Positions 794 through 33,483 of a stretch of 33,483 nt of DNA are shown here, one piece after another. Made by a program: the position numbers and the translations under genes. The stretch comes from Solirubrobacterales bacterium. GTDB lineage: Bacteria > Actinomycetota > Thermoleophilia > Solirubrobacterales > Solirubrobacteraceae. Numbering within the stretch: position 1 is the first letter of the stretch; every line of letters starts with the position of its first letter. The notes under the pieces are model-generated. The model was given only the letters and a program-made list of their open reading frames with translations. It was not told the DNA's origin and ran no database searches. Location: the NCBI GenBank assembly GCA_019241635.1, contig JAFAWR010000240.1, positions 1-33,483 of the forward strand, in the 5' to 3' direction.

Positions 794-805
794 ATTTTCA
801 CCAGA

Positions 806-15500: not shown

Positions 15501-17255
15501 GTGAGCTTTGTTGACCCGTCCGACCTCGGCCTGTTGCCGACTTTTCGCCGGTTGCTGCGCCTCTGGCGGGATCAGTGGCGTCTCGGTGTGTTCGGCCTCG
15601 CCTGTTCGCTGGCCTACACGCTGATCTCGACAGCCATCCCGGTGCTCATCCAGCAGGCGATTGACCGCTCAATCGTCCATCACGCGCAGCCGTTGTGGCC
15701 GTATTTGGCGATCATCGCGGGGCTCGCGGCGCTGCGTGCGGTCGTCAACTTCAACCGTCGCTATGCAACTGCGCGCATCGGCGTCCGGATCGAGGCGCGG
15801 ATGCGCGAGCTCCTCTATCAGGCGTACCTCAGATATCCGCGCGGCTTCTACGACCGCCATCCCACCGGGCAGGTGCTCTCGCGTGCGACGAACGACCTCT
15901 ACCCGATTCGCTACTTCATCGGCTGGGGCTTCGTGCAGGGAATGCAGAGCCTGATGATGATCACGGCCGCTGCGGTCGTGCTGACCGTCGTCGATGCTCG
16001 CCTCGCGCTGTATACGGCCGTCGCGATGCCGCCGATCACGGTGCTCGCGCTTCGGTTCGCGCGTCGCGTCGCGCCCATCTCCCGACAGGTGCAGGAGCGC
16101 AAAGGGGACGTGACCGAGGCGGCGGACGAGGCAGTGGTCGGGATCGAGATGGTGCAGACCTTCGGCCGCGAGGATGACGTGCGCGGCCGGTTCGGCGAGA
16201 AGGCGGAGGGTGTCCGCTCGACCGTGCTGCGGCAGGCCGGCGTCGAGTCGCGACACCTACCCGGCCTGTACTACCTGCCCGCATTGTCGATCGCCGCGGT
16301 TCTGTTCTTCGGTGGCCGACAGGTGATCGGCGGCCACCTGTCAATCGGACAATTCGTCCTGTTCGAGACGCTGTTGCTCCAGCTCGTGTGGCCGCTCGAG
16401 GCGCTCGGGTGGATCACGAACCTCGCGCAGCGCGCGCTCGCGTCGGCCGGCCGGAGCTTCGCGTGGCTCGAGGGGATCGAAGCGCTGCCCGAGCCGGCGC
16501 GCCCGCGCCGCCTGCCCGCGGGCCGGCTCGACGTTCGCTTCGAGCGGGTGAGCTTCGCGTACGGAGGCGAGGCGGATGTGTTGCACGACCTCGACCTCAC
16601 GATCGAGCCGGGGGAGATCGTTGCCGTCTGCGGTCCCACTGGCGCTGGCAAGACGTCGCTTCTGAACCTGCTGCCACGCTTCTATGACCCGACCGCGGGT
16701 CGTGTCCGCCTCGGCGGTGTCGACGCGCGGGACGTGCCGATCGCCGAGCTCCGCGCCTCGGTGGCGCTCGTCACGCAGCGACCCGTGCTGTTCTCGGTGC
16801 CGCTGCGCGAGAACCTGACGGCGGGGCGCGAGGAGGCGGATTGGGACGAGGTACTGGCCGCGTGTCGGGCCGCTGGAGTCGACAGCTTCGGACCGTCGCT
16901 GCCGGAGGGTTACGAGACGCTTATCGGCGAGCGCGGCGTGAATCTCTCAGGCGGCCAGCGCCAGCGGGTCGCGCTCGCCCGGGCTCTGGTCACCGGCGCG
17001 CGCGTTGTCGTGCTCGACGATCCGCTGTCTGCCGTCGACACGTTCACCGAGCGGCAGCTCGTCGCGCGCCTGCGCCCCGCGCTGGCGGGCCGGACGGTTC
17101 TCGTCGCGACGCAGCGCCTCTCCACCGTATGGATCGCCGACCGGGCCGTCGTACTCCTCGACGGTCGTATCGTCGAGTCGGGCCGGCCGGCCGAACTGGT
17201 TCGCGCGGGCGGACCGTTCGCAACGCTGTTCGGCGACGAAGTGGTGGCTGCATGA
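15501..17255 (+). CDS. heterodimeric ABC exporter, subunit with degenerate ATP site
   Basis: A 584-residue half-transporter. Six membrane segments fill residues 1-320 and the ATPase domain 340-575. Walker A is GPTGAGKTS (about 377) and the signature is the canonical LSGGQRQRVALARAL (about 482). Walker B ends in VVVLDDPLSAVDT (about 503), with Asp instead of the catalytic Glu, and the switch loop is ATQRLSTV with Gln instead of His. Together these mark the inactive-site half of a heterodimeric type IV exporter such as TM287/288 or BmrCD. Start GTG 15501; no strong ribosome site. The stop overlaps the next ATG (ATGA). Probable substrate: lipid or drug; unknown. Confidence 0.93.
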   Translation: MSFVDPSDLGLLPTFRRLLRLWRDQWRLGVFGLACSLAYTLISTAIPVLIQQAIDRSIVHHAQPLWPYLAIIAGLAALRAVVNFNRRYATARIGVRIEARMRELLYQAYLRYPRGFYDRHPTGQVLSRATNDLYPIRYFIGWGFVQGMQSLMMITAAAVVLTVVDARLALYTAVAMPPITVLALRFARRVAPISRQVQERKGDVTEAADEAVVGIEMVQTFGREDDVRGRFGEKAEGVRSTVLRQAGVESRHLPGLYYLPALSIAAVLFFGGRQVIGGHLSIGQFVLFETLLLQLVWPLEALGWITNLAQRALASAGRSFAWLEGIEALPEPARPRRLPAGRLDVRFERVSFAYGGEADVLHDLDLTIEPGEIVAVCGPTGAGKTSLLNLLPRFYDPTAGRVRLGGVDARDVPIAELRASVALVTQRPVLFSVPLRENLTAGREEADWDEVLAACRAAGVDSFGPSLPEGYETLIGERGVNLSGGQRQRVALARALVTGARVVVLDDPLSAVDTFTERQLVARLRPALAGRTVLVATQRLSTVWIADRAVVLLDGRIVESGRPAELVRAGGPFATLFGDEVVAA

Positions 17256-18988
17256 GGCGGCTGGGGAGATATCTCGAGGGTCGGAAGTTGACGGCGGCGC
17301 TCATGGTGCTCGTCGGAGCGGGCAACGCGGCCGCGCAGACCGGCGGCTGGCTGCTCGTCCGGAACGCGATCGATAAGGGCATCACGGCGGACAACGAACA
17401 CCACCTGACGATCGTCGTGGCCATCTACCTCGGCGTAGCCGCCGCCGGCTGGTTTCTTCAGGCGATGCTGATCCGCGGGCTCGCGACGATCGGCCAGGCA
17501 ATCGTGATCGGATTGCGGCGCGACCTGTTTGACCATCTCACCGGCCTGTCCCTCCGCTACTTCTCGCAGCAAAAGGCCGGCTGGATCATCGCCCGGCTCA
17601 CCAGCGACGTCGACGCGGTCTCTGACGTTCTCTCGCAGGGAATGCCGACGCTCGTCTCAAACGTCATGCTGCTGCCCGCCGCGGTCACCGCCCTGCTCAT
17701 CGCCGACTGGCGGCTGGGGATCGTCTCCCTGGCCGTGCTGCCCCCGGCACTCGCGCTGTCGCGCTGGTTCCAGCGCGTGTCGCATGCGGCGAATGTGGAA
17801 CAGCGCAACCGGATCGCCGCGGTCACAGCCCAGATCGCCGAGTCGGTTGCCGGCATGGCCGTCGTGCAGGCGTTCAACCGCGAGCGCCGCTTCCAGGCCG
17901 AGTTCGACGCGCTCAACGAAGCGAACCGTGCCCAGTCGACGTACGTCCAGAAGATCTTCTCGGTCTTCTTCCCATCGATCGAGTTCCTCGGCGTACTCGC
18001 GATGGTGGCCGTGCTCTACGTCGGCTCGCACCTTTACGCGCAGGACACGCTCACGATCGGAACGCTGATCACCGCGATCTATCTCCTGCAGCTCGTCTTC
18101 CAGCCGCTCCAGGAGCTCTCGGACGTCTACGGGCAACTCCAGTCTGCGGGCGCCGCGATGGTGAAGATCGCAAGCATCCTCGACGAGGAGCCGGAAATCC
18201 GAGACCGCCCTGGAGCGAAGCCGCTGCCGCGACTCTCTGGCGATCTCGATATCGACTCGGTGGTCTTCGCCTACGGCAAGGACCCCGTGCTGCACGGAGT
18301 CTCGTTCCGCGTGCCGCCCGGCGGCTGCTTCGCGCTGGTCGGCGAATCCGGCCACGGGAAGTCGACGCTAGCGCGGCTGATCGGCCGCCACTACGACCCC
18401 GACGAGGGAGCCGTGCGCGTGGACCACCACGACCTGCGTGACGTCCAGCTGCGCTCCTACCGGCGCCAGCTCGGTGTTGTGCTCCAGGATCCCTTCCTGT
18501 TCAGCGGCACGATCGCGTCGAACATCCGCTTTGCGAAGCCGGACGCGACCGACGAAGAAGTCCAGGCCGCCGCCGCCGCGGTCGGCGTCGACCGCGTCGC
18601 GGCACGCCTCTCCGGCGGCCTTGAGCATGAGGTGCGAGAGGGAGGCGCCGGGCTGTCCTCCGGCGAGCGCCAGCTCATCTCGATCGCGCGCGCTCTCCTC
18701 GCCGACCCGCGCATCCTCGTCCTCGACGAAGCAACCTCAAACATCGACCGGCCCACCGAAGTGCTGATCGAGCGGGCGCTCGACCGGCTCCTCGCCGGTC
18801 GCACATCGATCATCATCGCGCACCGTCTCTCGACCGTGCGGCGCGCGGAAAAGATCCTCGTCGTCGAGCACGGGCGGATCGTCCAGCGCGGCGCCGAGCG
18901 CGACCTTCTCTCCGAGGACGGCGTCTTCCGCCGCCTAGCGCACACGCTCGAGGGCGGCGACGAAACCGAGTTCGCTGCGGCCGGCTGA
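17252..18988 (+). CDS. heterodimeric ABC exporter, subunit with canonical Walker B
   Basis: A 578-residue half-transporter, six membrane segments followed by the ATPase. Walker A is GESGHGKST (about 364). The signature is LSSGERQ (about 468), degenerate from LSGGQ. Walker B with catalytic Glu is ILVLDEATSNID (about 488), and the switch His is in IIAHRLSTV (about 521). The partner supplies the canonical LSGGQ. In the heterodimer one site is therefore intact (this Walker motif with the partner signature) and one is doubly degenerate. ATG 17252 overlaps the partner stop. The long in-frame extension upstream is antisense-free shadow inside the first gene and is rejected. Confidence 0.93.
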   Translation: MRRLGRYLEGRKLTAALMVLVGAGNAAAQTGGWLLVRNAIDKGITADNEHHLTIVVAIYLGVAAAGWFLQAMLIRGLATIGQAIVIGLRRDLFDHLTGLSLRYFSQQKAGWIIARLTSDVDAVSDVLSQGMPTLVSNVMLLPAAVTALLIADWRLGIVSLAVLPPALALSRWFQRVSHAANVEQRNRIAAVTAQIAESVAGMAVVQAFNRERRFQAEFDALNEANRAQSTYVQKIFSVFFPSIEFLGVLAMVAVLYVGSHLYAQDTLTIGTLITAIYLLQLVFQPLQELSDVYGQLQSAGAAMVKIASILDEEPEIRDRPGAKPLPRLSGDLDIDSVVFAYGKDPVLHGVSFRVPPGGCFALVGESGHGKSTLARLIGRHYDPDEGAVRVDHHDLRDVQLRSYRRQLGVVLQDPFLFSGTIASNIRFAKPDATDEEVQAAAAAVGVDRVAARLSGGLEHEVREGGAGLSSGERQLISIARALLADPRILVLDEATSNIDRPTEVLIERALDRLLAGRTSIIIAHRLSTVRRAEKILVVEHGRIVQRGAERDLLSEDGVFRRLAHTLEGGDETEFAAAG

Positions 18989-20958: not shown

Positions 20959-21135
20959 TGTGATCGTGAACTCTGCCGGTCAGCCGCAGGCAGCACATCG
21001 GGCAAACGACTACTTCTCACTGCGGGCTCTTTAGGAGCTCACGACGAATCTTTAGATGTGGCGGGCCGTGTAACGCCTGGCGCGGTCCCGGGACGAACAA
21101 GCATTCTCCCCATCCGCCAGACGAGGAAACGAACC

Positions 21136-24100
21136 ATGATCGCGCTCAGTCAACTCATCGCTTCCGGGTTCAGAATGGCCCGGCTACCGCTAACCAACAC
21201 CCGCTCTCGGCCGAGGGTGAGACGGGCGCTCGCTTGCGTCGCCGCGGCTCCGTTGGTCGTGTTCGCGCTGGGCCTGGCGACGCACGCCACCGCGCGCGCC
21301 GCCAGCGGCGGCAGCGATGTGTTCAGCTACACGGGCTCATCGCAGACGTTCACTGTCCCGCCCGCCGTTAGCGAGGTGACCGTGACCGCAATCGGCGCTC
21401 CCGGCGGCTCCGGTGCGGGGGCGCAGGCCGGCGCCGGGGCTCCCGCGGCGGGCGGCGTTGGCAGCACGGTGACCGCCGTTCTTCCCGTCACCCCCGGCGA
21501 CACGTTGACGGTCGATGTGGCGGGGCACGGGGGCGACGCCGCCAGCAACGGCCTCGGCGGGCACTACGGGAGCGGCGGTGGACCAGAGGGCTCTCCCGGC
21601 GGGTACGGTGGCTTCGGCTTCAATCTAAGCGGAGGCGGCGGAGGCGGGGGAGCCAGCACGCTGTTTGACTCGACCGGGAAATTGCTGCTGATCGCGGGCG
21701 GCGGTGGTGGTGGTGGCGGTGCGGGTGTCGTCGAGGGCTACAACGGCGGCGCGGGCGGCAGCGGTGGCCTGCAGGCGGGCGGTGGCGGCGACGGCGGCTC
21801 GGGAGTTGGGCCGGGCAGCGGCGGGATACCGCAGGCCGGCCCTTCCTTGCTCGGTCAGAACGGCGCCGACGGCGCCACGTCCTCCGCAGCGGGCGCTGGC
21901 GGGGGCGGGGGCGGCGGATACCTCGGCGGCGGGGGCGGGGGCGGCGGCACGGCCAACGGCGGTGGTGGTGGCGGTGGCGCCGCGGGATCCTCGTACGTCG
22001 AGCCGTCGGCGATCGGCACTCCGACCTTCGGCCGTGCAGGCAGCACGGCCAACGGCGAGGTGATCGTTTCCTGGAGCGCGGCCGCCACCTCGACGGCCCT
22101 GTCGGTCGTTCCCGCTCCGAACGGCGCGGCAACATTCACGGCCACGATCACCCCACCGCCGGGGGTCACCTCACCGGAACCCACCGGGACCGTGTTCTTC
22201 CACGACGGCAGCCGCTTGATCGGCGAGGCGACCCTCAGCGGGTCCAGCCCTGACACCGCGGTCCTGTCCACCAACGCGGGTGGGGTACCTCCCGGGACCG
22301 GAAGCTTCAGCGCGGACTATGACGGCGACTCGGTGTACTCGGGCAGCACGTCGGCTTCTGTCCAGGCGCTCGTGCCCGGCGGGGCGATGACGACGCTGTC
22401 GTTGAGCCGAACACCGGGGATCGCTGGCCAGCCGGAGACGCTGACCGCGACCGTGAAGCCCTACTTCAGCGGTGGGCCCGAGCCCACCGGAGTGGTGGCC
22501 TTCTGCGGGCCGCCGGCGATCGGTTGCGCCAACGTCCCCCTCGACGGAAAGAACCCTGACCAGGCCACGTATACGACGACGGTCGGGAACGTCGCCGCCG
22601 GCACGTATCCGGTGAGTGCCAACTACGGGGGTGACAGCGTGTACCCCGGTTACTCCGACCTCGGCACGACCGTGATGTTGCCCGTAGTGGTCGCGGGTCC
22701 GCTGGCGGTGAGCACGACCACGCTGTCCGCTGGGCGGGTGGGCAGCGCCTACTCGGCCACGGTGGCCGGCACAGGTGGGGTTACCCCCTACCGCTGGTCG
22801 CTGGCCTCTGGATCACTGCCGGCTGGGCTGACGTTGAACCCGGCCACTGGCGCCATCACCGGTATCCCGACCCGCTACGGGACCGCAAGCTTCACCGTCC
22901 AGGCCACCGACTCGACGGCACCGACGGCCGAGACCGCCACGCGCGGCCTCAGCCTGACCGTCGCGCCGGCGCCGCTGGCCATAACGACGACGGCCCTCGC
23001 CACCGGCAAGGTCGGGTCCGCGTATTCCGCCAAGTTGACCGCGACCGGCGGTGTCACCCCCTACCACTGGTCGGTGGCGTCCGGATCGCTGCCGGCCGGC
23101 CTGACGTTGAACACCGCCACCGGCGCCATCACCGGCACCCCGACAAGCTCGGGCACGGCGAGCTTCACCGTCAACGTGACCGACTCCAACTCTCCAACGG
23201 CGACGCGCGCGACCCAGGCCGTCACCCTCACGATTGCGCCGGCCGTGCAGGCCGCGGTGTTCGTCACTCAGGGTGGCTACAGCGGTCTCACCTCCTATCC
23301 GCTGGGCGCCAACGGCAACGTGTCGCCCTACACCGACCTCACCGGACCGGCAACCGGGCTCGACGGGACGACCGCGGTGGTGATCTCCCCGACTGGGACG
23401 ACCTACATCGCAAGCGAGGGCAACGAGGAGATCGCCGAGTATCCCTACGCGGCGACTGGGAACGTCGCTCCCACCACCACGATCGCTGGTGGCGCGACCG
23501 GCCTGAGCTCCCCATCCGGCCTCGCGCTTGATTCGAGCGGGCGGCTCTACGTCGCCAACTACGCCGCCGCGACGATCACCGCCTACGCCCCCGGGGCGAG
23601 CGGCAACAGCGCGCCGATGGTGACGATCGGCGGGCCCGGCACTGGCCTGTTCGGCCCGACGGCGGTGACCTTCGACGGCAAAGGCGACCTGTGGGTGGCG
23701 AATGTCGCCAACAACACGCTCGAGGAGTTCGCGCCCGGCGCCAACGGGGACGTCTCGCCGATCGCGACGATCTCGGGACCGGACACCGGGCTGGACGGAC
23801 CTAGCGCGATCACGCTTGACGCGGCCGGCAACGTGCTCGTCGCGAACACCTACGGCGGATCGCTGACCGAGTACCCAACCAGCGCCAGCGGCGACGCGCC
23901 GCCGTTGCGGACGATCGCGGGTTCGGCGACCGGACTTTCGTTCCCCGACGGGATCGACGTCGACGCGAGCGGCAACATCTACGTGGCCAACGAATTCGCC
24001 GGCCTGGACGAGTTCGCTCCCACCGCGGACGGCAACGCGGCACCGCTGGACGCCGTCGGCGGATCCGCCACCGGGCTGTCGGCGCCGGGGCAGATCGCCG

Positions 24101-24423
24101 TCGCGCCACCGCTGTCGGTCGCGACCCACCACCTCGCGGCGGCGACGGTCGGCGCCCGCTACGCCGCCGTATTCATCGCCAACCTCGGCACGACCCCTTA
24201 CCGCTGGCGTGTCAACGCCAGTCATCTCCCGCCTGGGTTGCACCTCACCCAGAACGGCGCATTGCGGGGCACCCCGCGCCGGGCAGGAACCTATCGGTTC
24301 ACCGTCCGCGTGCACGATTCATCCCGCCCGACGATGACCGCCCGTCAAACCGTACGCCTGCTCGTCAAACCCGCCCGGCGGACGGGCCGATCGTCTCGCG
24401 CACCTGCTCGAAGCTCCGCCTGA
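21136..24423 (+). CDS. large mosaic surface protein: Gly-rich, Ig-like and beta-propeller regions
   Basis: From ATG 21136 (GAGGAAAC 8 nt upstream), 1,095 residues. A signal peptide ends near 60 (VVFALGLATHATARA). Residues 68-311 are Gly-rich, with runs of up to eight Gly. Two Ig-like domains (Big_3 type, YDGDSVYSGSTSA and YGGDSVYPGYS) lie at 315-518. Two He_PIG domains (SGSLPAGLTLNPATGAITG) lie at 522-703. A six-blade NHL/SMP-30-like propeller (GLALDSSGRLYVANY, GIDVDASGNIYVANE) spans 705-991, and a third He_PIG 993-1081. There is no LPXTG or membrane anchor, and a basic tail ends the protein. It is probably an adhesive or exopolymer-binding secreted protein. The last 20 codons lie opposite an integrase remnant, so the native C-terminus may have been replaced. 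Confidence 0.88.
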   Translation: MIALSQLIASGFRMARLPLTNTRSRPRVRRALACVAAAPLVVFALGLATHATARAASGGSDVFSYTGSSQTFTVPPAVSEVTVTAIGAPGGSGAGAQAGAGAPAAGGVGSTVTAVLPVTPGDTLTVDVAGHGGDAASNGLGGHYGSGGGPEGSPGGYGGFGFNLSGGGGGGGASTLFDSTGKLLLIAGGGGGGGGAGVVEGYNGGAGGSGGLQAGGGGDGGSGVGPGSGGIPQAGPSLLGQNGADGATSSAAGAGGGGGGGYLGGGGGGGGTANGGGGGGGAAGSSYVEPSAIGTPTFGRAGSTANGEVIVSWSAAATSTALSVVPAPNGAATFTATITPPPGVTSPEPTGTVFFHDGSRLIGEATLSGSSPDTAVLSTNAGGVPPGTGSFSADYDGDSVYSGSTSASVQALVPGGAMTTLSLSRTPGIAGQPETLTATVKPYFSGGPEPTGVVAFCGPPAIGCANVPLDGKNPDQATYTTTVGNVAAGTYPVSANYGGDSVYPGYSDLGTTVMLPVVVAGPLAVSTTTLSAGRVGSAYSATVAGTGGVTPYRWSLASGSLPAGLTLNPATGAITGIPTRYGTASFTVQATDSTAPTAETATRGLSLTVAPAPLAITTTALATGKVGSAYSAKLTATGGVTPYHWSVASGSLPAGLTLNTATGAITGTPTSSGTASFTVNVTDSNSPTATRATQAVTLTIAPAVQAAVFVTQGGYSGLTSYPLGANGNVSPYTDLTGPATGLDGTTAVVISPTGTTYIASEGNEEIAEYPYAATGNVAPTTTIAGGATGLSSPSGLALDSSGRLYVANYAAATITAYAPGASGNSAPMVTIGGPGTGLFGPTAVTFDGKGDLWVANVANNTLEEFAPGANGDVSPIATISGPDTGLDGPSAITLDAAGNVLVANTYGGSLTEYPTSASGDAPPLRTIAGSATGLSFPDGIDVDASGNIYVANEFAGLDEFAPTADGNAAPLDAVGGSATGLSAPGQIAVAPPLSVATHHLAAATVGARYAAVFIANLGTTPYRWRVNASHLPPGLHLTQNGALRGTPRRAGTYRFTVRVHDSSRPTMTARQTVRLLVKPARRTGRSSRAPARSSA
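22700..23245 (+). repeat. tandem He_PIG domain duplication, 273-bp period
   Basis: Two consecutive units of 91 codons are nearly alike. CTACCGCTGGTCG at 22788 aligns with CTACCACTGGTCG at 23061, and the SLPAGLTLN segment repeats. The high nucleotide identity suggests a fairly recent domain duplication within the surface protein gene. Confidence 0.8.
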
Positions 24424-24600
24424 GCGCGTGGCGATAGCGCTGCTGGGCGGCCTTCACGCTGTGCCCGGAGATATCGGCCAGGTCGGCGACGTCGATGCTG
24501 GCGGCGCTCAGGTTGCTGACGTAGCTGTGCCGGAAGTCCTGGGGTGTGCACTCGAGGCCCGACGCGCGCCATTAGCGCGGCGGCGTCCTCGGCGAGCGCA
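24365..24600 (-). pseudogene. tyrosine recombinase (phage integrase) C-terminal remnant
   Basis: On the reverse strand the frame ending at TGA 24365 reads TPQDFRHSYVSNLSAASIDV, then ADLADISGHSVKAAQQRYRHAL, ending in ETIGPSAGRV. The second catalytic Arg region (FRHS), GHS and the nucleophile Tyr in QRYRH match the C-terminal core of tyrosine recombinases. Upstream the frame hits TAA at about 24570; an adjacent frame continues in integrase-like fashion (ALAEDAAALMARVG) before another stop, indicating a frameshift and decay. The N-terminal half is missing. Its 3' end overlaps the antisense 3' end of the surface protein gene. No attachment-site repeat seen. Confidence 0.75.
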
Positions 24601-24730: not shown

Positions 24731-24760
24731 TATATTAACCGTCTCGTCGGTATAATACAA
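24731..24760. promoter_or_regulatory. TetR-type operator, site 1
   Basis: ATTAACCGTC, TC, GTCGGTATAAT form a near palindrome (ACCG/CGGT core). A perfect TATAAT (24751-24756, plus strand) forms its right edge. On the minus strand TTGTAT (24755-24760), 17 bp, TAATAT (24732-24737) makes a second promoter, so the layout copies site 2. The plus promoter points at tetR 215 bp away through a 65-codon Arg-rich frame (24769-24966) that ends 4 nt before tetR but does not look like a protein. The minus promoter points at a 63-codon frame (24508-24699) and the integrase debris. Confidence 0.75.
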
Positions 24761-24970
24761 GCGGAGCAATGAAACATTCGATGGGCGGACTTCCGGTTGA
24801 CGTCAAACCCGCACGGTCAGCGGTTCCAGTTCGCACGCGTCGTGCCCGCGTGGTTCCGGCCTCGGTTAGTCGGAACACCTTGCGGCGACACAGGCTCGCC
24901 GCCGGGCGTGGGGGGCACGATTGGCCGCCGTCCCGTCCAGTTCGGCGGGGCTTGCGCTTACACTGACCCA

Positions 24971-25789
24971 ATGGCCCGAGCCCGCGACAATAAGGCCACA
25001 CAGGGCGACGGTGTGCTGCCGCTCTCCGGGGTAATCGATGTGCTGAAGCGGGCGGCCGAGCGTGGAGAACTGAGCGCCAACGAGCTCGACTGGTCTATCG
25101 CCCGTCTCTCGGGGAAGGTGCGTGCGGGAAATCCGCGCCTTGAGGGGATCGATCGCCGCGACAGCATCTTGCGTGCGGCGATCGAGATCTTCCGCCGAGA
25201 GGGCTACAACCGTGCCGGAATCGAGACGATTGCCAACGAGCTCTTCGTTTCCAAGGCCGCCGTCTACCATTACTTCTCCTCAAAGCAGGAGATCCTCGAC
25301 GCGATCTGCGAACGGTCAAGCATCGCCACGTACGATGGCGTCATGGCGGCCAAGGAGGCGGAGGCGGGCGGCGATCCCGATTCCCGGCTGCGAAGCATGC
25401 TCGGTGGCTACGCGCGGGCGTGCATGAATGAGCCCGGGTTCAGCATCCTCATGCGGCATTTCGACGAGGTCTCGGACGTCGAGCGGGAGAGAGTCCAGCG
25501 CCGGGGCAAGGAAGTCGAGGCGGCCTTCCGCGAGACAGTCGCCGAGGGCGTGGCTGCCGGGGTCTTCAGGCCGCCGGACCCCCGTATAACCGTCTTCGGC
25601 ATGCTGGGTTCCCTCAACTACATGTACGCCTGGTTCAAGCCCGAAGGACGGCTATCGCCGGAGCAGGTCGGCGACGCCTTGGTGACGTTCATCGTCGATG
25701 GCGTGCGCGGCAACGGCGCTCGCCCACCGCAGCGAGCGCGGAAGGCGCCGGCGAGCGGTCGCCGGACGGCGAAAAGCCACCCGCGCTAG
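24971..25789 (+). CDS. TetR-family transcriptional repressor
   Basis: From ATG 24971, 272 residues, long for the family. Residues 1-55 are an N-terminal extension (VIDVLKRAAERGELSANELD). The TetR DNA-binding domain is at about 57-110 (RDSILRAAIEIFRREGYNRA, then ETIANELFVSKAAVYHYFSS and KQEILDAI). The ligand domain runs to 240 (TetR_C/KstR2-like FGMLGSLNYMYAWFKPEGRLSPEQ), then a basic tail. TACACT lies 6 nt before the ATG, suggesting a leaderless transcript. Operator-like palindromes near tetR and two transport/CoA promoters indicate a local regulon, probably with an acyl-CoA inducer, by analogy with KstR2-type regulators. Its stop shares CTAG with that of the convergent CoA-transferase gene. 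Confidence 0.9.
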   Translation: MARARDNKATQGDGVLPLSGVIDVLKRAAERGELSANELDWSIARLSGKVRAGNPRLEGIDRRDSILRAAIEIFRREGYNRAGIETIANELFVSKAAVYHYFSSKQEILDAICERSSIATYDGVMAAKEAEAGGDPDSRLRSMLGGYARACMNEPGFSILMRHFDEVSDVERERVQRRGKEVEAAFRETVAEGVAAGVFRPPDPRITVFGMLGSLNYMYAWFKPEGRLSPEQVGDALVTFIVDGVRGNGARPPQRARKAPASGRRTAKSHPR

Positions 25790-27003
25790 ACCACTTCGCG
25801 GCGGCGCAAGTCGCCGATCTGACCGCTTGAGAAGCCCAGCTCAGCGAGCACCTCGTCGGTGTGCTGCCCGACGTGCGGCGCCGCGGAGCGGATGCTCACG
25901 GGCGTCTCGGAGAAGTCGACCGGCGTGGGGACGTACCAGAACTCGCCAAGCTCGGGGTGTGGCAGCCGTGTCAGGTACTGGTTGGCCAGTATCTGCTCGT
26001 CGGACGAGAGGTCCGTGAGCGCGTTGACCCGGCAGGAGATCATCTCGTGCTCGCGCACCAGCCCCTCCCATTCGGGCCAGGTCAGCTTGGCAAACGCCTG
26101 GTCGAGAAGAATGATCAGCTCGCGGTGGTGAGCATCCCGGTCCGCATGCGTCGCGAAGCGCGAGTCGTCGACCAGGCGCTCGAGTCCGAGCGCCCTACAT
26201 AGCACCGGCCAGTCCTTCTGGCCGTGGACGATCATGCCGAGAGCGATCCACGTGCCATCTTTCAGCTCGTAGACGTTGTAGAGAGGGTCGTGTTGGTCAC
26301 GACGATCAAGCGGTCGCGGGTCCTGGCCCGTGTTCGCAGCGCAGCTGATCGCCACAGCCTGCAGGCTCAGCGTCCAGCCCAGCAGCGAAGTGCGCACCAG
26401 CTGTCCCGTCCCCGTGCGGTCGCGCGCGAGGAGCGCTCCGAGAATCCCGAAAGCGAGCCCGATGGCACCGAGGCGATCGTTGAGCCCGATGGTGGGGTAG
26501 ACCGGTTCGTTGCCGACCTTGGCGGACCCGAGCATCAGGCCCCCATGAGCCTGACCCATCATCTCCAGACCGGCCTTGTCGGTGTCCGGACCGCGTTCAC
26601 CGTAGGCGGTACCACGCGCGTACACGAGGCGCGGATTAAGGGCCGACAACGTCTCGTAGTCGAGCTGCTGCTTACGGGCTGCAGCCGGGCGGAAGTTTGT
26701 CACGAACACGTCCGCGCGCTCGACCAGCCGGTGGACGATGTCTCGGCCCTCCGGCTGATTGAGGTCGACGGTGATGCTCCGCTTGTTGCGCAGCAGATCC
26801 TCCGTGAACGTATTGCGCTCATGATCGAGCAGGAACCTATACCCCCAAAGGCTCGCGAGTCGGCGGAGGGAATCGCCGCCGTCGCGGACCTCGAGCTTGA
26901 CCACTTCCGCCCCCATGTCGCCCAGAAACATCGATGCGCCGGGGCCCAGATGTTGATGCGCCCACTCCACGACCCGGACTCCGGATAGGGGACCATTCGC
27001 CAC
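25786..27003 (-). CDS. CaiB/BaiF-family (class III) CoA-transferase
   Basis: About 405 residues from GTG 27003 (ATG 27012 is inside the -10 box of the promoter that precedes it, so it is rejected). Family signatures are GPLSGVRVVEWAHQHLGPGA at the N-terminus, MGAEVVKLE, LNQPEGRDIVHRLVERADVFVTNFRP and GERGP. The transferase moves CoA from a donor such as succinyl-CoA to an acid. At the position of the catalytic Asp (usual pattern GYDxxxQAxSG) this protein has Glu147 (KAGLEMMGQAHGG). It is transcribed divergently from the transporter genes across operator site 2 and is probably the activation step for the imported acid. Confidence 0.9.
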   Translation of the reverse strand: MANGPLSGVRVVEWAHQHLGPGASMFLGDMGAEVVKLEVRDGGDSLRRLASLWGYRFLLDHERNTFTEDLLRNKRSITVDLNQPEGRDIVHRLVERADVFVTNFRPAAARKQQLDYETLSALNPRLVYARGTAYGERGPDTDKAGLEMMGQAHGGLMLGSAKVGNEPVYPTIGLNDRLGAIGLAFGILGALLARDRTGTGQLVRTSLLGWTLSLQAVAISCAANTGQDPRPLDRRDQHDPLYNVYELKDGTWIALGMIVHGQKDWPVLCRALGLERLVDDSRFATHADRDAHHRELIILLDQAFAKLTWPEWEGLVREHEMISCRVNALTDLSSDEQILANQYLTRLPHPELGEFWYVPTPVDFSETPVSIRSAAPHVGQHTDEVLAELGFSSGQIGDLRRREVV

Positions 27004-27006
27004 GGC

Positions 27007-27039
27007 TTGCATATTAACCGACGCGTCGGTATATTGCAA
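27007..27039. promoter_or_regulatory. TetR-type operator, site 2, inside two face-to-face promoters
   Basis: A perfect 14-bp palindrome ACCGACGCGTCGGT (27017-27030). Plus promoter: TTGCAT (27007-27012), 17 bp, TATATT (27030-27035). Minus promoter: TTGCAA (27034-27039), 17 bp, TAATAT (27011-27016). Both spacers contain the palindrome. The minus -10 ends 7 nt before GTG 27003, so the CoA-transferase mRNA is probably leaderless; the plus transcript has a leader of about 120 nt. Confidence 0.85.
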
Positions 27040-27160
27040 CCCGACGGTCGGAAGGCATCGGAGCACGCGCCTTCGAGTACGGATGTCGGTGCCTTTCCGG
27101 GCCGGCCATCTGAAGTTCAGACCACTTCCCCGGCCGCGGGATAACAGAGGAGAGGAAGCA

Positions 27161-28267
27161 GTGCTAACGGCAAATGCGATCGGTGGGCGGGAGCGGACAG
27201 CGACCATGACCCAAGACCAAGCCGCTCCGCCGCCAGTTCCACCGGGCGAGCCAACCGGCGCCCGCCGTAGCCGCACGTGGCTTCGTGCGCTGAGCATCAA
27301 GCGATTGAGCGCTGTCTACTTGTTCGTCTTCTTTATCGTGCTCTTCGGCATCATCAGCCCGGACACGTTTTTGACCGTGACGACGTTCCGGCTGGTGTTT
27401 CGCTCCGGTGTGATCACCGGTGTGCTGGCCCTGGCGTTCTTGGTGCCGCTGACCGCCGGGGGCTACGACCTGTCGATCGGCGCCGTAATGTCGCTGTCGT
27501 TCGGGATCATTGTGTATCTCTCGATCCACACCGGCATACCGATCCCGGTCGCGGCGATCCTGGCGCTTCTGCTATCGGCGTTCTGTGGCCTCGTATCAGG
27601 ATTCATCGTCGTGCGCTTGCACGTCAACTCCTTCATCGCGACGCTCGGCGTTAGCCAGGTGCTGCTGGGCGCCGTCCTGCTGCTCACCAGCAACTCCCAG
27701 CTCGTCGGCAACATCCCTCAGTCCTGGTCAAACCTCGGAAACAACAACCTGCTCGGCATTCCGATTGTCGTGTACTTCCTGTTTGCATTGGCTCTCGTTC
27801 TGTATTACGTGTTGGAGCACACTCCGGTCGGCCGCTACCTTTTCGCTACCGGCGGCAATACGGACGCGGCGCGTCTCGCCGGCGTGCCAACCGAGCGTGT
27901 GGTGTGGGGTAGCTTTATCGCCAGCGGCACGATTGCGGGGCTGGCCGGCGTGATCTTCTCGATGCAGAACGGCCTGTTTGACTCGAGCATCGGCCCTGGA
28001 TACCTGTTCCCCGCGGTCGCCGCGGTTTTCTTCGGCGCCTCCCAGCTATCACAGCGACCGAACGTGTGGGGGACGCTCATCGCCTATTTCGCACTCGCGT
28101 TCGGCATCCAAGGTCTCGTCCTGTCGGCGAGCGGGGCGTCCGTGTGGAGCACACCCGTCTTCCAGGGCGTTTCGCTCATCATCGCCGTCGCCCTCGCCAG
28201 CCGGCCCGCGCTCCGCAAGCTCCGTGCCACAAAGGCCGAGGCCACCGCCATCAGCCCGGTGAAGTGA
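27161..28267 (+). CDS. RbsC-type ABC transporter permease
   Basis: From GTG 27161, which follows an excellent ribosome site (GAGGAGAGGAAG), 368 residues. ATG 27206 is a weaker alternative. About 10 hydrophobic helices; family marks are VLALAFLVPLTAGGYDLSIGAVM (the DLSVG motif), GLVSGFIVVRLHVNSFIATLG, FATGGNTDAARLAGV and SGTIAGLAGVIF. RbsC-like permeases form a homodimer with an RbsA-type ATPase and a lipoprotein receptor. Permease and ATPase are adjacent here, and the receptor is 2.4 kb downstream, separated by decayed genes. Although the family is sugar-associated, the CoA-transferase and crotonase neighbours suggest an acid substrate. Confidence 0.9.
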   Translation: MLTANAIGGRERTATMTQDQAAPPPVPPGEPTGARRSRTWLRALSIKRLSAVYLFVFFIVLFGIISPDTFLTVTTFRLVFRSGVITGVLALAFLVPLTAGGYDLSIGAVMSLSFGIIVYLSIHTGIPIPVAAILALLLSAFCGLVSGFIVVRLHVNSFIATLGVSQVLLGAVLLLTSNSQLVGNIPQSWSNLGNNNLLGIPIVVYFLFALALVLYYVLEHTPVGRYLFATGGNTDAARLAGVPTERVVWGSFIASGTIAGLAGVIFSMQNGLFDSSIGPGYLFPAVAAVFFGASQLSQRPNVWGTLIAYFALAFGIQGLVLSASGASVWSTPVFQGVSLIIAVALASRPALRKLRATKAEATAISPVK

Positions 28268-28268
28268 C

Positions 28269-29834
28269 ATGCAAAGCAACCGAGATATGACAGCGCCGGC
28301 CGCGCAACCCGCGCCGATCTTGACGATCCGCGGGCTGAGCAAGACATTTCCCGGAACCAAGGCGCTCGACCGGGTCGACCTCGACCTTCGAGCCGGCGAG
28401 GTGCACGCCCTCGTGGGGCAGAACGGCTGTGGCAAGTCGACGCTAATCAAGGTCCTGGCCGGCTACCACCAACCGGACCCGGGTAGTGAAATCAGGGTCT
28501 CCGGCGAACCGGTGGATTTCCACGACACCGGCGCGTCGCGCGACGCGGGGTTCCGCTTCGTGCACCAGGACCTCGGGCTCGTCGAGACGCTGAGCGCAGT
28601 CGAAAACCTGACCCTTGGCCGCGACCTGAACACCAGCTTCGGCGGTCGCATCCGCTGGCCGGCCGAACGACGGGCGGCCGAAGAGCGCATTCATGCGCTC
28701 GGATATGACTTCGACGTCAACCGCCCAGTGGCAGAGCTCGGGAGCGCCGAGCGTACCGGGATCGCAATCGCGCGTGCATTGTGGGACTGGGAGCGAGCCC
28801 GCGTACTCGTCGTGGACGAGCCGACCGCCTCACTCCCGCGTGAAGAGGTCAAGATCCTGTTCGAGGCCCTGGATCGGATCCGCAAACGAGGCCTCGGGAT
28901 CATTTACGTCTCGCACCGGCTGGACGAGATCTTCACGATTGGCGACCGGGTCACGGTCCTCCGCGACGGCAGGCTCGTCGGTACGTGGGCCGTCGCCGAA
29001 CTCAACCAAGACAAACTCGTCTCGTTAATGGTGGGTGGCGCGGAGCTGCGGCCGCCGCACCATGGTACGTTCGCCGGGACACATGAGGTGGTGCTCGACG
29101 TCCAACAGCTGCGAGGCGTCGACGTCGATAACGTCGACATCCAGGCCAGACGTGGCGAGGTGCTCGGCATCGCGGGCCTCATCGGGTCCGGTCGAGAGGA
29201 ACTGCTCCCGCTGCTGTTCGGCGCGCAGTCGCGCGGCGGCGAGGTCCGCGTCAACGAGAAGCCCGTTCCTGCCACCACACGCGGCGCGATCGCAGCCGGA
29301 ATGGCGCTTGTGCCGGCCGACCGACGCGGCGAGGGCGCGATCGTTGGCCTCAGCGTCAGCGAGAACTTCACGCTCACCGACTTGAAACGTCACTCCGGAC
29401 CGGCTGGGTTCCTCAACCGAGCGGCCGAGCGGAACGAGGTGACGGAATGGATCCAGCAACTCGACGTACGACCGCAGCGGGCTGATGCCATATTCGCCAC
29501 CCTCTCCGGGGGTAACCAGCAAAAGGTTGTTCTGGCGAAATGGCTCCGTCGTCAGCCAACCGTGCTCCTGTTAGATGAGCCCACTCAAGGAGTCGACGTC
29601 CACGCGAAAGCGACCATCCACGCGTTGGCCCGGGAAATTGCCGCCCAGGGCGCGGTCGTGCTGATTGCCTCCTCTGATGACACGGAACTCTGCGACACCT
29701 GCGACCGCGTTCTGGTCATGCGCGGGGGCGCCATCGTGGCGGAGGTTCAACGGGAACGCCTCACTCCTGAGGAGCTTGGGAGGCTGCAGCTCGAGGCTGC
29801 GAACAACGAAGACGAGAATCGAACGCTTGCATGA
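28269..29834 (+). CDS. RbsA-type ABC transporter ATPase (two ATPase domains)
   Basis: A 521-residue tandem ATPase starting 1 nt after the permease stop. Domain 1: Walker A GQNGCGKST, Q-loop FVHQDLGLVETLS, signature LGSAERTGIAIARAL (degenerate), Walker B VLVVDEPTASL, switch YVSHRLDE. Domain 2: Walker A replaced by GLIGSGREEL, signature LSGGNQQKVVLAKWL (canonical), Walker B VLLLDEPTQGVD. This split is normal for RbsA/MglA. The alternative start M7 (28287) is possible. Its TGA overlaps ATG 29831 of the decayed flavoprotein gene, showing that a third cistron once followed. Confidence 0.93.
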   Translation: MQSNRDMTAPAAQPAPILTIRGLSKTFPGTKALDRVDLDLRAGEVHALVGQNGCGKSTLIKVLAGYHQPDPGSEIRVSGEPVDFHDTGASRDAGFRFVHQDLGLVETLSAVENLTLGRDLNTSFGGRIRWPAERRAAEERIHALGYDFDVNRPVAELGSAERTGIAIARALWDWERARVLVVDEPTASLPREEVKILFEALDRIRKRGLGIIYVSHRLDEIFTIGDRVTVLRDGRLVGTWAVAELNQDKLVSLMVGGAELRPPHHGTFAGTHEVVLDVQQLRGVDVDNVDIQARRGEVLGIAGLIGSGREELLPLLFGAQSRGGEVRVNEKPVPATTRGAIAAGMALVPADRRGEGAIVGLSVSENFTLTDLKRHSGPAGFLNRAAERNEVTEWIQQLDVRPQRADAIFATLSGGNQQKVVLAKWLRRQPTVLLLDEPTQGVDVHAKATIHALAREIAAQGAVVLIASSDDTELCDTCDRVLVMRGGAIVAEVQRERLTPEELGRLQLEAANNEDENRTLA

Positions 29835-30268
29835 CGGCTTGACGAGATGTAATCGTCGTCCGGGCCGGAACGGCTCGCCTCTCGGCGACGCTCGCGGCCA
29901 GCGAGGCTCGGAGTGACGTTCTCATTCTGGAGAGTGAGTCGTCCGTCGGAGGATCGATGGCCATCAGCGGCGGCCTGATCTGGGCGCCTGCGACATTTGA
30001 ACTCGCACGACGATGAATCCCTCGTGGCGATCCTGCGCTGCAACGGCTACTCGTGGACGCATTAGCGGACGATTGGTCATGGCTAGAGGGGCATGACTTG
30101 CCTCTCGAACCGCCCGTCGCGTGACTCAAAGAGCGCATGGGCCGAGGCCGCCTCATATCCATCGGGGACGCCGGCGCTCGGGAACCGTGGTCGCAGCGGC
30201 TGCTCGACTCCGCTCGGTGCGAGGGCGCTGAGATGCCTCGAGTCACGCGTCGACACATGCCGCTGTAG
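29831..30268 (+). pseudogene. decayed FAD-dependent dehydrogenase (fumarate reductase/ketosteroid dehydrogenase-like)
   Basis: ATG 29831 overlaps the ATPase stop. The frame reads MTA, TGA, then DVIVVRAGTARLSATLAASE, VLILESESSVGGSMAISGGLI, then WAPATFELAR before another stop. The FAD motif VVGAGTAGLSAALAASEAG is recognisable, but two of its glycines have become Arg. Later pieces are out of frame with one another (LQRLLVDALADDWSWLEGHD, then stop; GRGRLISIGDAGAREPWSQR, then stop). Multiple lesions plus loss of the C-terminal domain identify an old pseudogene. It was probably the acyl or ring dehydrogenase step of the operon. Confidence 0.8.
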
Positions 30269-30384
30269 GCGTGGAGGAGCCACGCCCCATCCCAGAACGT
30301 CGCTGGAATTGTTTCGGGGTCACGCGGCGGGTGGCTGCTGCCGCGCCCGCCCGCTCTCCGCAATGGTCTGAGCAAACGCGCTGA

Positions 30385-30621
30385 GAGGAGCCCTCCGAAT
30401 TGATCATGGGCGCGCGGGGGGTCGGGGAAGGCGGCGCGATCACCGCGCCCGATGCGGTCCTAAATGCGCTCGACGACGCGATCATCGCCGCCGGCGATGG
30501 CCGGATCGGTCGAACGCCCTGCGCGCCTACCGAAGTTCTCCGGGCGCTCGGCGTCCCGCTGGCCCAAAGCCCACCCGACCACGCCTTGTTCCACAGTGAG
30601 CCGGATTCCGGCGGCCAGTAG
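30385..30621 (+). pseudogene. C-terminal remnant of a molybdenum hydroxylase large subunit (xanthine dehydrogenase/CoxL family)
   Basis: A 78-codon open stretch starts just after a TGA and reads EEPSELIMGARGVGEGGAIT, then APDAVLNALDDAI, then TEVLRAL before TAG 30621. GARGVGEGG (usually GAKGVGEGG with the catalytic Glu) and the following helix are the C-terminal active-site region of the Mo-cofactor subunit. Everything N-terminal of this (about 700 residues) is gone. It is fused to nothing recognisable upstream, where the flavoprotein debris ends. Confidence 0.75.
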
Positions 30622-30651
30622 TCCCAGCTCGCAACTTCTTCTTGCATGCAC

Positions 30652-30693
30652 TTGACGAACTGAAGTCGATTCTATAATTTTCCGACTGGTCGG
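30652..30693 (+). promoter_or_regulatory. promoter of the binding-protein gene with TetR-type operator, site 3
   Basis: TTGACG (30652-30657) and TATAAT (30673-30678), 15 bp apart, form a plausible promoter. CCGAC-TG-GTCGG (30682-30693) covers the expected start point and is followed by TTAAT, so the right half GTCGGTTAAT is the exact reverse complement of the half-site ATTAACCGAC seen in site 2. Confidence 0.75.
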
Positions 30694-30716
30694 TTAATTT
30701 CTCAGGAGGAGACACA

Positions 30717-31871
30717 ATGAGAAGGTCAATGCTGGTAACCGCTCCGTTGCTCATAGCCATGTTCGCCGTCGCAGGGTGCGGCAGCAGCAGCAGCAGCAGC
30801 AGCAGCTCGAACACAGCCGCTAATGGCAGCGGTAGCACGAACACAACCACCAACGCTGCCGCCACCGGATCCGCAACGGCGCCGCCGACCACCCCGCCGA
30901 CGAGCATCCCCATCACCCAGGCGCTTCCAAAGGCGCCACCGAAGGGCAAGACAATCCTCTACCTGCAGTGCGAGCTGCCCGCCTGCGCGCGCACAGCGCC
31001 TGGCATCCAGCAGGGCGCGGCTGCTCTCGGCTGGAACAGCAAGGTTCTCGTTTACAAGAACGCCGACCCGGGCGCTGGACTGCAGTCCGCGATCCAGCAA
31101 CACCCCAACTACATAGCGATCACCGGCATCCCCACGGCAGCAATGAAGCCACAACTCGCCGCTGCCAAAAGCGCCGGGATCCCGGTGCTGTCCTGTGGCA
31201 CGACCGACAAGCCGTCTCCCGATGGCTATGCCATCGAGTGCGGTGGCACACTCGAGCGGGACGCCGAATACCTCGGCCGCTGGGTTACCCGTGACTCGGG
31301 CGGTAAGGCGAATGTGGTCGCGGTGTCGATTCCCCAGTTCCCCGCGCTTGTGACCATCACGGACTGGTTCAAGCACAATTTCAGCGGGATGTGCTCCGGC
31401 TGCAAGTTCGACGAGCTCGACGTGACCGTCGACGACATCGGCTCCGGACAGGTTGGATCGAAGATCGTCGCCTACCTGCAGGCGCACCCGAACGTCAACT
31501 ACGTGCTCTTCACCTTCGCTGATCTTGCGACCGGCGTGCCACAGGCCATCCAGAGCTCGGGGCTCGCACATCAGGTCAAGCTCGTCGGCGCCGTCGAGAG
31601 CGAAGGAATCGTCAAGGGCGTCCCGACGACCTATAAGGCGTGGACTCTCTCGCCCAACGAGTACATGGGCATGGTGATGGTCGACGCCGCCGCGCGTCTG
31701 TCACTCGGCGAAACGCTCTCGCAACAGTACCTTGACGAGATCTACCACAACCCCACCTGGGTGCTCGACTCGGCCGCTGAAGCTAACGCACTCGCTGCTA
31801 CGAACGATACCTGGCCTGGACCTGCTGGATACGTGGGGCAGTTCAAAAAACTCTGGCAGGTCGGAAGCTAG
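30717..31871 (+). CDS. sugar-type ABC transporter substrate-binding lipoprotein
   Basis: A 384-residue lipoprotein with lipobox AVAGC (Cys21). Residues 22-75 are a Ser/Asn/Thr/Ala-rich linker with nine consecutive Ser. From about residue 78 (GKTILYLQCELPACARTAPG) the periplasmic-binding fold type I (Peripla_BP_4) begins, with IAITGIPTAAMKPQLAAAKSAGIPVLSCG and, in the C-terminal lobe, YVLFTFADLATGVPQAI. Cysteines in CELPAC and CSGCKF could form disulfides. AGGAGGAG lies 5-6 nt before ATG 30717. Operator site 3 precedes it. It is the receptor for the RbsC/RbsA-type permease and ATPase; the ligand is unknown. Confidence 0.92.
   Translation: MRRSMLVTAPLLIAMFAVAGCGSSSSSSSSSNTAANGSGSTNTTTNAAATGSATAPPTTPPTSIPITQALPKAPPKGKTILYLQCELPACARTAPGIQQGAAALGWNSKVLVYKNADPGAGLQSAIQQHPNYIAITGIPTAAMKPQLAAAKSAGIPVLSCGTTDKPSPDGYAIECGGTLERDAEYLGRWVTRDSGGKANVVAVSIPQFPALVTITDWFKHNFSGMCSGCKFDELDVTVDDIGSGQVGSKIVAYLQAHPNVNYVLFTFADLATGVPQAIQSSGLAHQVKLVGAVESEGIVKGVPTTYKAWTLSPNEYMGMVMVDAAARLSLGETLSQQYLDEIYHNPTWVLDSAAEANALAATNDTWPGPAGYVGQFKKLWQVGS
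30783..30806 (+). repeat. AGC trinucleotide repeat (8 units) in the lipoprotein linker
   Basis: Eight consecutive AGC codons followed by TCG encode the poly-Ser start of the tether just after the lipidated Cys. Slippage here would change tether length without changing frame. Confidence 0.9.
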
Positions 31872-31886
31872 AACAAGTCCAACGCC

Positions 31887-31917
31887 GCGCGGCGGGGGGT
31901 CCGACCCCCCGCCGCGC
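31887..31917 (+). terminator. strong GC hairpin between the binding-protein and crotonase genes
   Basis: A perfect 14-bp stem (GCGCGGCGGGGGGT with its complement) closes on a CCG loop, starting 16 nt after the lipoprotein stop. No T tract follows (TGGTGGG), so it may be a 3'-end stabiliser or attenuator rather than a classical terminator. The next gene starts 54 nt later. Confidence 0.7.
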
Positions 31918-31970
31918 TGGTGGGCAACGCGGGAACGTGGAATGCTGGAGGCAGCGATCAGGAGCGACTC

Positions 31971-32774
31971 GTGTTCGAAGACATCCTCTACGCCGTGGAC
32001 GGCGGCGTTGCCACCATCACCTTTAACAGGCCGGCGCGACACAACGCGTTAGGCATGCGCGGCTTCGACGAGCTCGTCACAGCCCTGCGCCAGGCCGAAG
32101 CGAATGAGCACGTCGGCGTGGTCGTGATCACCGGGTCCGGGCGGTCGTGGTGCGCTGGCGGCGACATCGAAATGGCTCAGACCATCCTCACCAATGAGGC
32201 CGCCGCACGCACGCACTTCTTCGGACGCATGATCGAGGCCTCACACTGGATGCTCGCGCTCGGCAAGCCCGTGATCTGTGCGATCCACGGTGCGTGCATC
32301 GGGGGTGGCGCCGAGCTCATGACATTCGCCGACTTCGTGATCGCCGACGAGAGCGCGTTCTTCGTGTACAACGGGACCGCAATCGGCGGCTGCAGCTGGT
32401 GGGGTGGGCCGCAGCTGCTGCCCCTATTGGTCGGCCTGCGGAAGGCAGAGGAGATCCTGTACCTCTCGGCTCGCGTCGACGCCGAGGAGGCAGCCCGGAT
32501 CGGTCTCGTTAATCGGGTCGTCCCAGTCGGCCAGCTGGAGGGAGCGGCGAACGAGTATTGCCAGAAGCTGCTCGATCTCTCAGAGGAGGGCGTACGCATG
32601 ACTAAGGCCGCTCTGCGCGCCACAAAGGAGATCCTTCTCGCGAACATGAGCGCCGCGGCCGAGATGAACGTCGCCGGGCTGGCAAAGCCCCATCTGCACG
32701 CCGCCTTCGATGCCTTCCGCGAAGGTCGCGAAATGTCCTGGCGAGCGCTGCGCCCCGGCTTAACATCCGAGTAA
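31971..32774 (+). CDS. enoyl-CoA hydratase/isomerase (crotonase) family protein
   Basis: From GTG 31971 (CAGGAG 6 nt upstream), 267 residues. The frame is open to ATG 31920, but that would begin in the hairpin 3' flank. The crotonase core is present: TGSGRSWCAGGDIE (oxyanion-hole strand 1), KPVICAIHGACIGGGAELMTFADFVIADESA (second oxyanion-hole Gly at AxGGG), then LSARVDAEEAARIGLVNRVVP. At the usual hydratase Glu region it has NGTAIGGCSWWGGPQLL, more like MenB/BadI-type ring-processing members than the classical EcaH pair of Glu; this is a tentative reading. It probably hydrates or cleaves the CoA intermediate made by the transferase. Confidence 0.88.
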   Translation: MFEDILYAVDGGVATITFNRPARHNALGMRGFDELVTALRQAEANEHVGVVVITGSGRSWCAGGDIEMAQTILTNEAAARTHFFGRMIEASHWMLALGKPVICAIHGACIGGGAELMTFADFVIADESAFFVYNGTAIGGCSWWGGPQLLPLLVGLRKAEEILYLSARVDAEEAARIGLVNRVVPVGQLEGAANEYCQKLLDLSEEGVRMTKAALRATKEILLANMSAAAEMNVAGLAKPHLHAAFDAFREGREMSWRALRPGLTSE

Positions 32775-32801: not shown

Positions 32802-33483
32802 GTGACCAGGCGCGAGCGATCCAACCGCCCGGATGAGCCGCACCGCGGCCCGTTGGTCGGCGTGCGTGTGATCGAGTGGGCGCACGCTCACATGGGCCCA
32901 GCGGGCGGCACATTCCTCGCCGATATGGGCGCGGACGTCGTCCACGTGGAGCGGCCCGACGGCGACATCATGCGACACACGGTCGGGACCTGGGGCGTGA
33001 ACCACATGCTCCCTAAAGGGCGCAACGCGATCTTCGAGGACCTCTCGCGCAACAAGCGCAGCCTCGCGCTAGACCTCAACAAGCCGGCCGCACAGCGGAT
33101 CATGCACGAGCTCGTCAAGCGCGCCGACGTTTTCCTGACCAACATGCGCCCCGCCGCAGCCCTCAAGCACAGGCTCGATTACCCGACACTCTCGGAGCTC
33201 AATCCACGCCTGATCTACTGCGGCGCAACCTCGTTCGGCGAGCGCGGCCCCGAGCGCGATAGCCCAGGCCTAGAGATGATGGGCATGGCGCGCAGCGGAA
33301 TGCTATTCGGCTCCTCGGTCCAGGGCCAGCCACCCCAGCACCCCACCGTCGGCACCAGTGACAGACTCGGGGGCATCGGGATCGCCCTCGGGATCGTCAG
33401 CGCGCTGTACGCACGCGAGCACACCGGAGAAGGACAGGCGGTCTACACATCGCAGCTCGGCTGGGGCATCAACCTGCAGACGG
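32802..33483 (+). CDS. second CaiB/BaiF-family CoA-transferase, truncated by window end
   Basis: From GTG 32802, 227 residues to the window edge. A paralogue of the divergent CoA-transferase at 25786-27003: GPLVGVRVIEWAHAHMGPAG, MGADVVHVE, SRNKRSLALDLNKPAAQRIM, RADVFLTNMRPAA, LNPRLIYCGATSFGERGP. As in the paralogue, the catalytic Asp position holds Glu158 (SPGLEMMGMARSG). The gene lies 27 bp after the crotonase gene. Two such genes together may form a heteromeric enzyme, as BbsEF does, or act on different acids. Confidence 0.9.
   Translation, partial: MTRRERSNRPDEPHRGPLVGVRVIEWAHAHMGPAGGTFLADMGADVVHVERPDGDIMRHTVGTWGVNHMLPKGRNAIFEDLSRNKRSLALDLNKPAAQRIMHELVKRADVFLTNMRPAAALKHRLDYPTLSELNPRLIYCGATSFGERGPERDSPGLEMMGMARSGMLFGSSVQGQPPQHPTVGTSDRLGGIGIALGIVSALYAREHTGEGQAVYTSQLGWGINLQT

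Follow-up and report, generated by a model that had tools for sequence, protein, structure and literature searches.

In this work we looked at a stretch of 33,483 nucleotides from a Solirubrobacterales bacterium (contig JAFAWR010000240.1; "the window" below means this whole stretch). A site region of about 6 kb within it holds three copies of an operator-type pseudo-palindrome, and around them lie genes for a TetR-type regulator, a ribose-type ATP-binding cassette (ABC) importer, two proteins of the class III coenzyme A (CoA)-transferase fold and a crotonase-fold protein. The genes and sites are, in order of position:

24736..24753: operator-type site 1, TAACCGTCTCGTCGGTAT; overlaps a TATAAT box at 24751-24756 directed towards tetR (box placed by eye)
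24971..25789, + strand: tetR, TetR_N and TetR_C_24; about 60 residues ahead of the helix-turn-helix; start codon chosen by eye
25786..27012, - strand: caiB1, class III CoA-transferase fold; Glu151 where the catalytic Asp is expected; start at ATG 27012 or GTG 27003
27015..27032: operator-type site 2, TAACCGACGCGTCGGTAT; within the spacers of two promoter-like pairs that face opposite ways (boxes placed by eye)
27206..28267, + strand: single ribose-type permease (BPD_transp_2, Pfam)
28269..29834, + strand: double ABC ATPase of the importer (Pfam ABC_tran, two stretches)
30679..30696: operator-type site 3, TTTCCGACTGGTCGGTTA; right after a TATAAT box at 30673-30678 (placed by eye) and 20 bases from the binding-protein ATG
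30717..31871, + strand: substrate-binding lipoprotein-like protein (Peripla_BP_4), with Cys85/Cys90 and Cys226/Cys229
31971..32774, + strand: crotonase-fold protein (ECH_1); open reading frame (ORF) opens at 31920, start GTG 31971 suggested by AGGAG at 31960 and by orthologs
32802..33483, + strand: caiB2, class III CoA-transferase fold, truncated where the contig ends; Glu in place of the expected catalytic Asp

Analysis of the seven proteins with Pfam gives TetR_N and TetR_C_24, CoA_transf_3 (twice), BPD_transp_2, ABC_tran (two stretches), Peripla_BP_4 and ECH_1, and by these domains the genes named by an earlier, sequence-only reading of this DNA (tetR, ribose-type transporter, CoA-transferases, crotonase) were right. 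The scores are 53.7 bits for TetR_N (cut-off 24), 171.7 bits for ECH_1 (cut-off 27) and, for CoA_transf_3, 340.8 bits over the full domain in CaiB1 and 218.5 bits in the cut CaiB2. Among the NCBIfam matches listed (the best 25 for two of the proteins) none of the seven reaches a cut-off, and because of this we claim no named pathway.

The decamer ATTAACCGAC is found in the window at 27013-27022 (+) and 30689-30698 (-), and its single-mismatch variant ATTAACCGTC at 24734-24743 (+), just as the sequence-only reading had placed its half-site. One additional one-mismatch decamer is located at 33178-33187, within caiB2. These make four matches in the window against 0.50 expected, and at least four were seen in none of 100 shuffles, while in the 4.42-megabase (Mb) assembly the exact decamer occurs twice, both times in the window. 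The complete element is an 18-base-pair (bp) two-fold pseudo-palindrome, WWACCGACNNGTCGGTWW, which with at most one mismatch occurs at three places in the assembly, every one of them in the window. At two mismatches the assembly has 7 further places elsewhere, and 27 other genomes of the genus contain 5 places with at most one mismatch, spread over 4 genomes. From these 12 outside places we inspected 8, namely all 5 in the genus and 3 of those with two mismatches. Six of the 8 fall within a predicted ORF and none of the 8 has, by the markers used, a TetR or an importer of the window's kind nearby.

All three sites are intergenic and their surroundings are promoter-like by eye. The tetR ATG lies 217 bases 3' of site 1. 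Site 2 sits within the 17-base spacers of two opposed candidate promoters, TTGCAT-17-TATATT (+, 27007-27035) towards the permease and ATPase genes and TTGCAA-17-TAATAT (-, 27039-27011) towards caiB1. The latter would start caiB1 transcription near 27004, in which case GTG 27003 would be a likelier start codon than ATG 27012. Further transcript starts are predicted by eye near 24763, 27042 and 30685.

A comparison with known regulators helps to place these sites. PaaR of Burkholderia cenocepacia has an operator between -10 and -35 that was tested by mutation (PMC2770484). Its sequence, ACCGACCGGTCGGT, and the core of site 2, ACCGACGCGTCGGT, are alike at 12 of 14 bases, and the two systems share a TetR-type repressor, an operator between -10 and -35 and, in the window as predicted, control of CoA-dependent catabolism (PMC2770484). 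PaaR differs in governing phenylacetate genes, none of which is seen in the window, and the window's putative regulon includes an importer. A phenylacetate regulon of the PaaR kind was rejected, as the three sites adjoin tetR, caiB1, the importer genes and the binding-protein gene, none of them assigned to paa; the crotonase also scores far below the cut-off of the PaaG model. The site 2 core further resembles the sites of TTHB023 from Thermus (PMC7022988). Based on the resemblance to both operators, the mode of regulation is of a known kind, and the points of interest are the importer branch and the Glu-type CaiB proteins. A second parallel is MbdR of Azoarcus, a TetR-type repressor that is released by 3-methylbenzoyl-CoA and has sites at an ABC importer unit, at promoters for CoA-dependent catabolism and in the region of its own gene, with a different operator (ATACN10GTAT) and an anaerobic aromatic pathway (PMC4424350). 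For the window TetR itself, no ortholog emerged when the six top candidates in each of 399 genomes of the class were scored (best listed match 36% identity), and a genome-contig scan gave 17 loci with relatives at 27-39%. Footprinting through TetR orthologs therefore had no ortholog to use.

The importer has the composition of a ribose-type system, with a Peripla_BP_4 binding protein, a BPD_transp_2 permease and a double ABC ATPase, as in RbsABC and other importers of the CUT2 family. It differs from them in its own permease clade, in the Cys pairs of its binding protein and in its CoA-enzyme neighbours. In a permease tree restricted to permeases matched by the window permease (unmatched control permeases being left out), one branch (100/99) parts 35 rows of the window type from 31 control rows, and the window permease does not group with the canonical ribose-type members. 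In an alignment of the window binding protein with 22 of its 37 relatives, Cys85 and Cys90 are each present in 20 of the 23 rows and Cys226 and Cys229 each in 22, and both Cys-pair motifs together were found in none of 40 control domains. A structure of the binding protein predicted with no alignment was not used (predicted local distance difference test score, pLDDT, 45.7), and the phthalate (PatDABC) and cholate (CamABCD) importers were considered as leads, but the texts consulted do not state their importer family.

The neighbourhoods of related importers were compared in 39 test loci, namely 37 other binding-protein places (E up to 1e-20, in 146 genomes of the family) and two weaker ones, with 40 control loci. 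The controls are non-random, taken from the top of the Peripla_BP_4 list by rank and contig room, and represent 12 of the 25 genomes in which the search was made. As CoA markers we used CaiB, crotonase, acyl-CoA dehydrogenase, an adenosine monophosphate (AMP)-forming ligase and SCP2-type thiolase. Of the 39 test loci 27 have at least one marker, as do 4 of the 40 controls, and at least two kinds are present in 14 test loci and no control. By marker, the test and control counts are 4 and 0 for CaiB, 8 and 0 for crotonase, 17 and 2 for acyl-CoA dehydrogenase, 18 and 2 for the ligase and 4 and 0 for the thiolase. Four test loci had supplied the marker queries; removing them leaves markers in 23 of 35, and removing also the second of each same-contig pair leaves 20 of 32 against 4 of 40 (p = 3e-6). 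Contig ends truncate several of the test loci, which disfavours marker detection. Cytochrome P450 genes were found at 10 test loci and one control, the query loci included. The window's own genome has, on another contig, a paralogous ribose-type importer whose binding protein is 35% identical (locus L013, contig C308). Its end is 2 kb away from mftF, a mycofactocin gene followed by mftE and mftC, and on the other flank of the importer are a mycofactocin-coupled dehydrogenase and a CoA ligase; a mycofactocin-coupled dehydrogenase also adjoins a relative on a Rhodococcus jostii plasmid. Since the permease clade is separate and this importer type neighbours CoA enzymes, a sugar substrate is unlikely. 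The earlier reading's "sugar-type uptake" thus stands for the fold family, whereas the clade and the CoA-rich loci speak against it as a substrate class.

CaiB2 is 56% identical to CaiB1. In class III CoA-transferases the catalytic residue is an Asp, Asp169 in CaiB/FRC and Asp165 in MCT (PMC9196870). CaiB1 shares the full CoA_transf_3 domain with CaiB/BaiF and FRC and differs by a Glu in place of this Asp. The Glu is found in all four members of its clade (CaiB1, CaiB2 and two orthologs), compared with 24 Asp, 3 Ala and 1 Gly in 28 other relatives at the loci given, and Asp is present in 9/9 CaiB proteins retrieved from other loci. CaiB1 is far under the cut-off of every named class III model among the matches listed, and a carnitine (cai) pathway was rejected on a score of 90.7 bits against a cut-off of 413 for the L-carnitine CoA-transferase model NF002914. 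In rat enoyl-CoA hydratase the catalytic pair is Glu144 and Glu164; when the crotonase is compared by eye with the known motifs, the first Glu is kept (GGGAEL) and the second looks like Gly, and both orthologs are alike in this.

Close orthologs of both proteins occur in two congeners, G018 and G023 (caiB1 64% and 63%, crotonase 65% and 64% identity), where the two genes are adjacent (loci L192 and L193). Searches of 61 and 146 genomes gave no close ortholog beyond these two, and the sample of 399 genomes of the class adds only a 40% relative of caiB1. In the congeners the pair adjoins a LIV-type importer (Peripla_BP_6 and BPD_transp_2, with two BPD_transp_2 permeases in G023), and on this ground the caiB1/crotonase pair can be regarded as a module that is combined with different importers and regulators. 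Footprinting through these orthologs was of no use, there being two congeners, both without the operator. In L193 a different palindrome, AAACTGAGATCAGTTT, was noticed by eye at about 11184 and upstream, flanked by the caiB1 ortholog and a divergently oriented dehydrogenase gene, and it is perhaps the operator of another regulator.

The arrangement that we consider likely is a small local catabolic regulon made of the TetR, three operator-type sites, the CoA-transferases, the importer and the crotonase. In such a regulon the local TetR would bind the three 18-bp pseudo-palindromes and repress its own gene; at site 2 it would repress the divergent caiB1 and permease-ATPase genes from one shared operator, and at site 3 a presumed transcription unit of the binding-protein gene, the crotonase gene and caiB2. 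The importer may take up a carboxylate, or a compound that is oxidised to one; the CaiB proteins would turn the imported compound into a CoA thioester, and the crotonase-fold enzyme would process the thioester. An early CoA ester, or the substrate itself, might release TetR, as with MbdR. The importer would then come from a ribose-type branch that serves non-sugar substrates catabolised through CoA, probably cyclic or branched ones; for the window, a cyclic or branched carboxylate is our guess from context. With somewhat less than even confidence we also propose that this importer branch, with its single permease and Cys-pair binding proteins, was repurposed for lipophilic compounds, cyclic or branched, whose degradation runs via CoA esters, P450s and mycofactocin-coupled dehydrogenases, and that in the window a local TetR connects it with a pair of CaiB proteins working with Glu in place of Asp. 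The earlier description of the locus as an uncharacterised catabolic system fits, as the literature searched gave no description of it, most subscription papers being outside its coverage.

Several observations weigh against a local TetR regulon. A consensus promoter scan flags none of the promoters placed by eye, its sole match at any site being a minus-strand TTAACC-17-TAGAAT that spans site 3. Triples of loosely palindromic 14-mers are frequent in 6 kb (in 186 of 300 shuffles and in 115 of 118 control pieces), and the requirement for A/T-A/T flanks was chosen post hoc, with the sites already seen. The 6-kb region has one such flanked triple, whereas none occurs in 1000 shuffles of that region, in 200 whole-window shuffles or in 209 real 6-kb pieces from relatives; chance palindromes, which the loose test could not separate, are set apart when the flanks are required and when the whole genome is searched. 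As the assembly is 75% complete, it may lack further sites. Of the related importer loci, 12 of 39 have no CoA marker at all and only 4 of 39 have CaiB. The congener stretches with the caiB1/crotonase module (7.6 and 19.1 kb) have neither the operator nor a match to the window TetR, which means that the TetR/operator link is not conserved. On sequence grounds the local regulon of the sequence-only reading is well supported, by a rare palindrome in three intergenic copies at promoter-like positions, by tetR as a member of the set, by the absence of any further copy from the assembly at this stringency and by the PaaR precedent.

It may be asked whether the window simply holds a ribose-like sugar uptake operon beside CoA genes. 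The best models of the importer proteins are of the ribose or arabinose type, yet all score below cut-off, and caiB1, the importer genes and the binding-protein gene have one rare site in common. Together with the separate permease clade and with CoA enzymes adjoining related importers far oftener than canonical ones, this makes a sugar operon unlikely. Another option is that the sites are genuine operators of a different TetR-family protein of the cell, for example of the fatty-acid or phenylacetate type, and that the local TetR has other targets. ACCGAC-type half-sites are common to several TetR proteins (PaaR and TTHB023) and the genome has further TetR candidates (41 at first look). However, a wider regulator would need more sites, the assembly has no other one with a single mismatch, and site 1 precedes the local tetR; we regard this option, too, as improbable.

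Lastly, the gap 29835-30680 ahead of site 3 contains the relics of two different oxidoreductase genes, and a third relic is found immediately 5' of site 1:

24368-24571, - strand: relic, C-terminal part of a tyrosine recombinase (Phage_integrase), 27.0 bits against a cut-off of 27.1
29846..30148, + strand: relic, N-terminal part of a flavin adenine dinucleotide (FAD)-dependent dehydrogenase (FAD_binding_2-type), with internal stops
30385..30555, + strand: relic, molybdopterin hydroxylase (C-terminal end), sharing 67% identity over 57 residues with a gene of the G023 locus

The FAD relic is 33% identical to proteins of L065 and L013 (E 1e-9 and 9e-8), and the G023 counterpart of the hydroxylase relic lies 2 kb from the caiB1 ortholog. 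Based on these relics, one of them related to a gene near a congener caiB1, the window locus probably used to contain further parts of this pathway. That the cluster is a decaying remnant of a larger oxidation pathway and no longer works is unlikely: the two oxidoreductase relics within it and the integrase relic just upstream would suit decay, but family domains and coding-type third-position GC content are retained in six complete ORFs and in a seventh that runs off the contig, and site 3 is at the binding-protein gene, on the 3' side of the relics. The cluster may have arrived by a mobile element. The GC content is 0.64-0.66 over 26001-32000 and 0.66-0.70 across most of the window.

Ribose-type importers are usually annotated as sugar importers. 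Should this branch bring in non-sugar substrates for catabolism through CoA, these annotations should change, and the operator would give a direct handle on the ligand of the regulator and on the substrate. The Glu-type CaiB clade would probe how much change of nucleophile the class III CoA-transferase mechanism can accommodate.

Elsewhere in the window, a protein of 1121 residues with Ig-like domains and NHL repeats is encoded directly ahead of the cluster (21058-24423, +), two neighbouring ABC exporter half-genes (ABC_membrane and ABC_tran) lie at 15501-18988 (+), and a tRNA-His at 804-879 (-) is the sole RNA gene detected.

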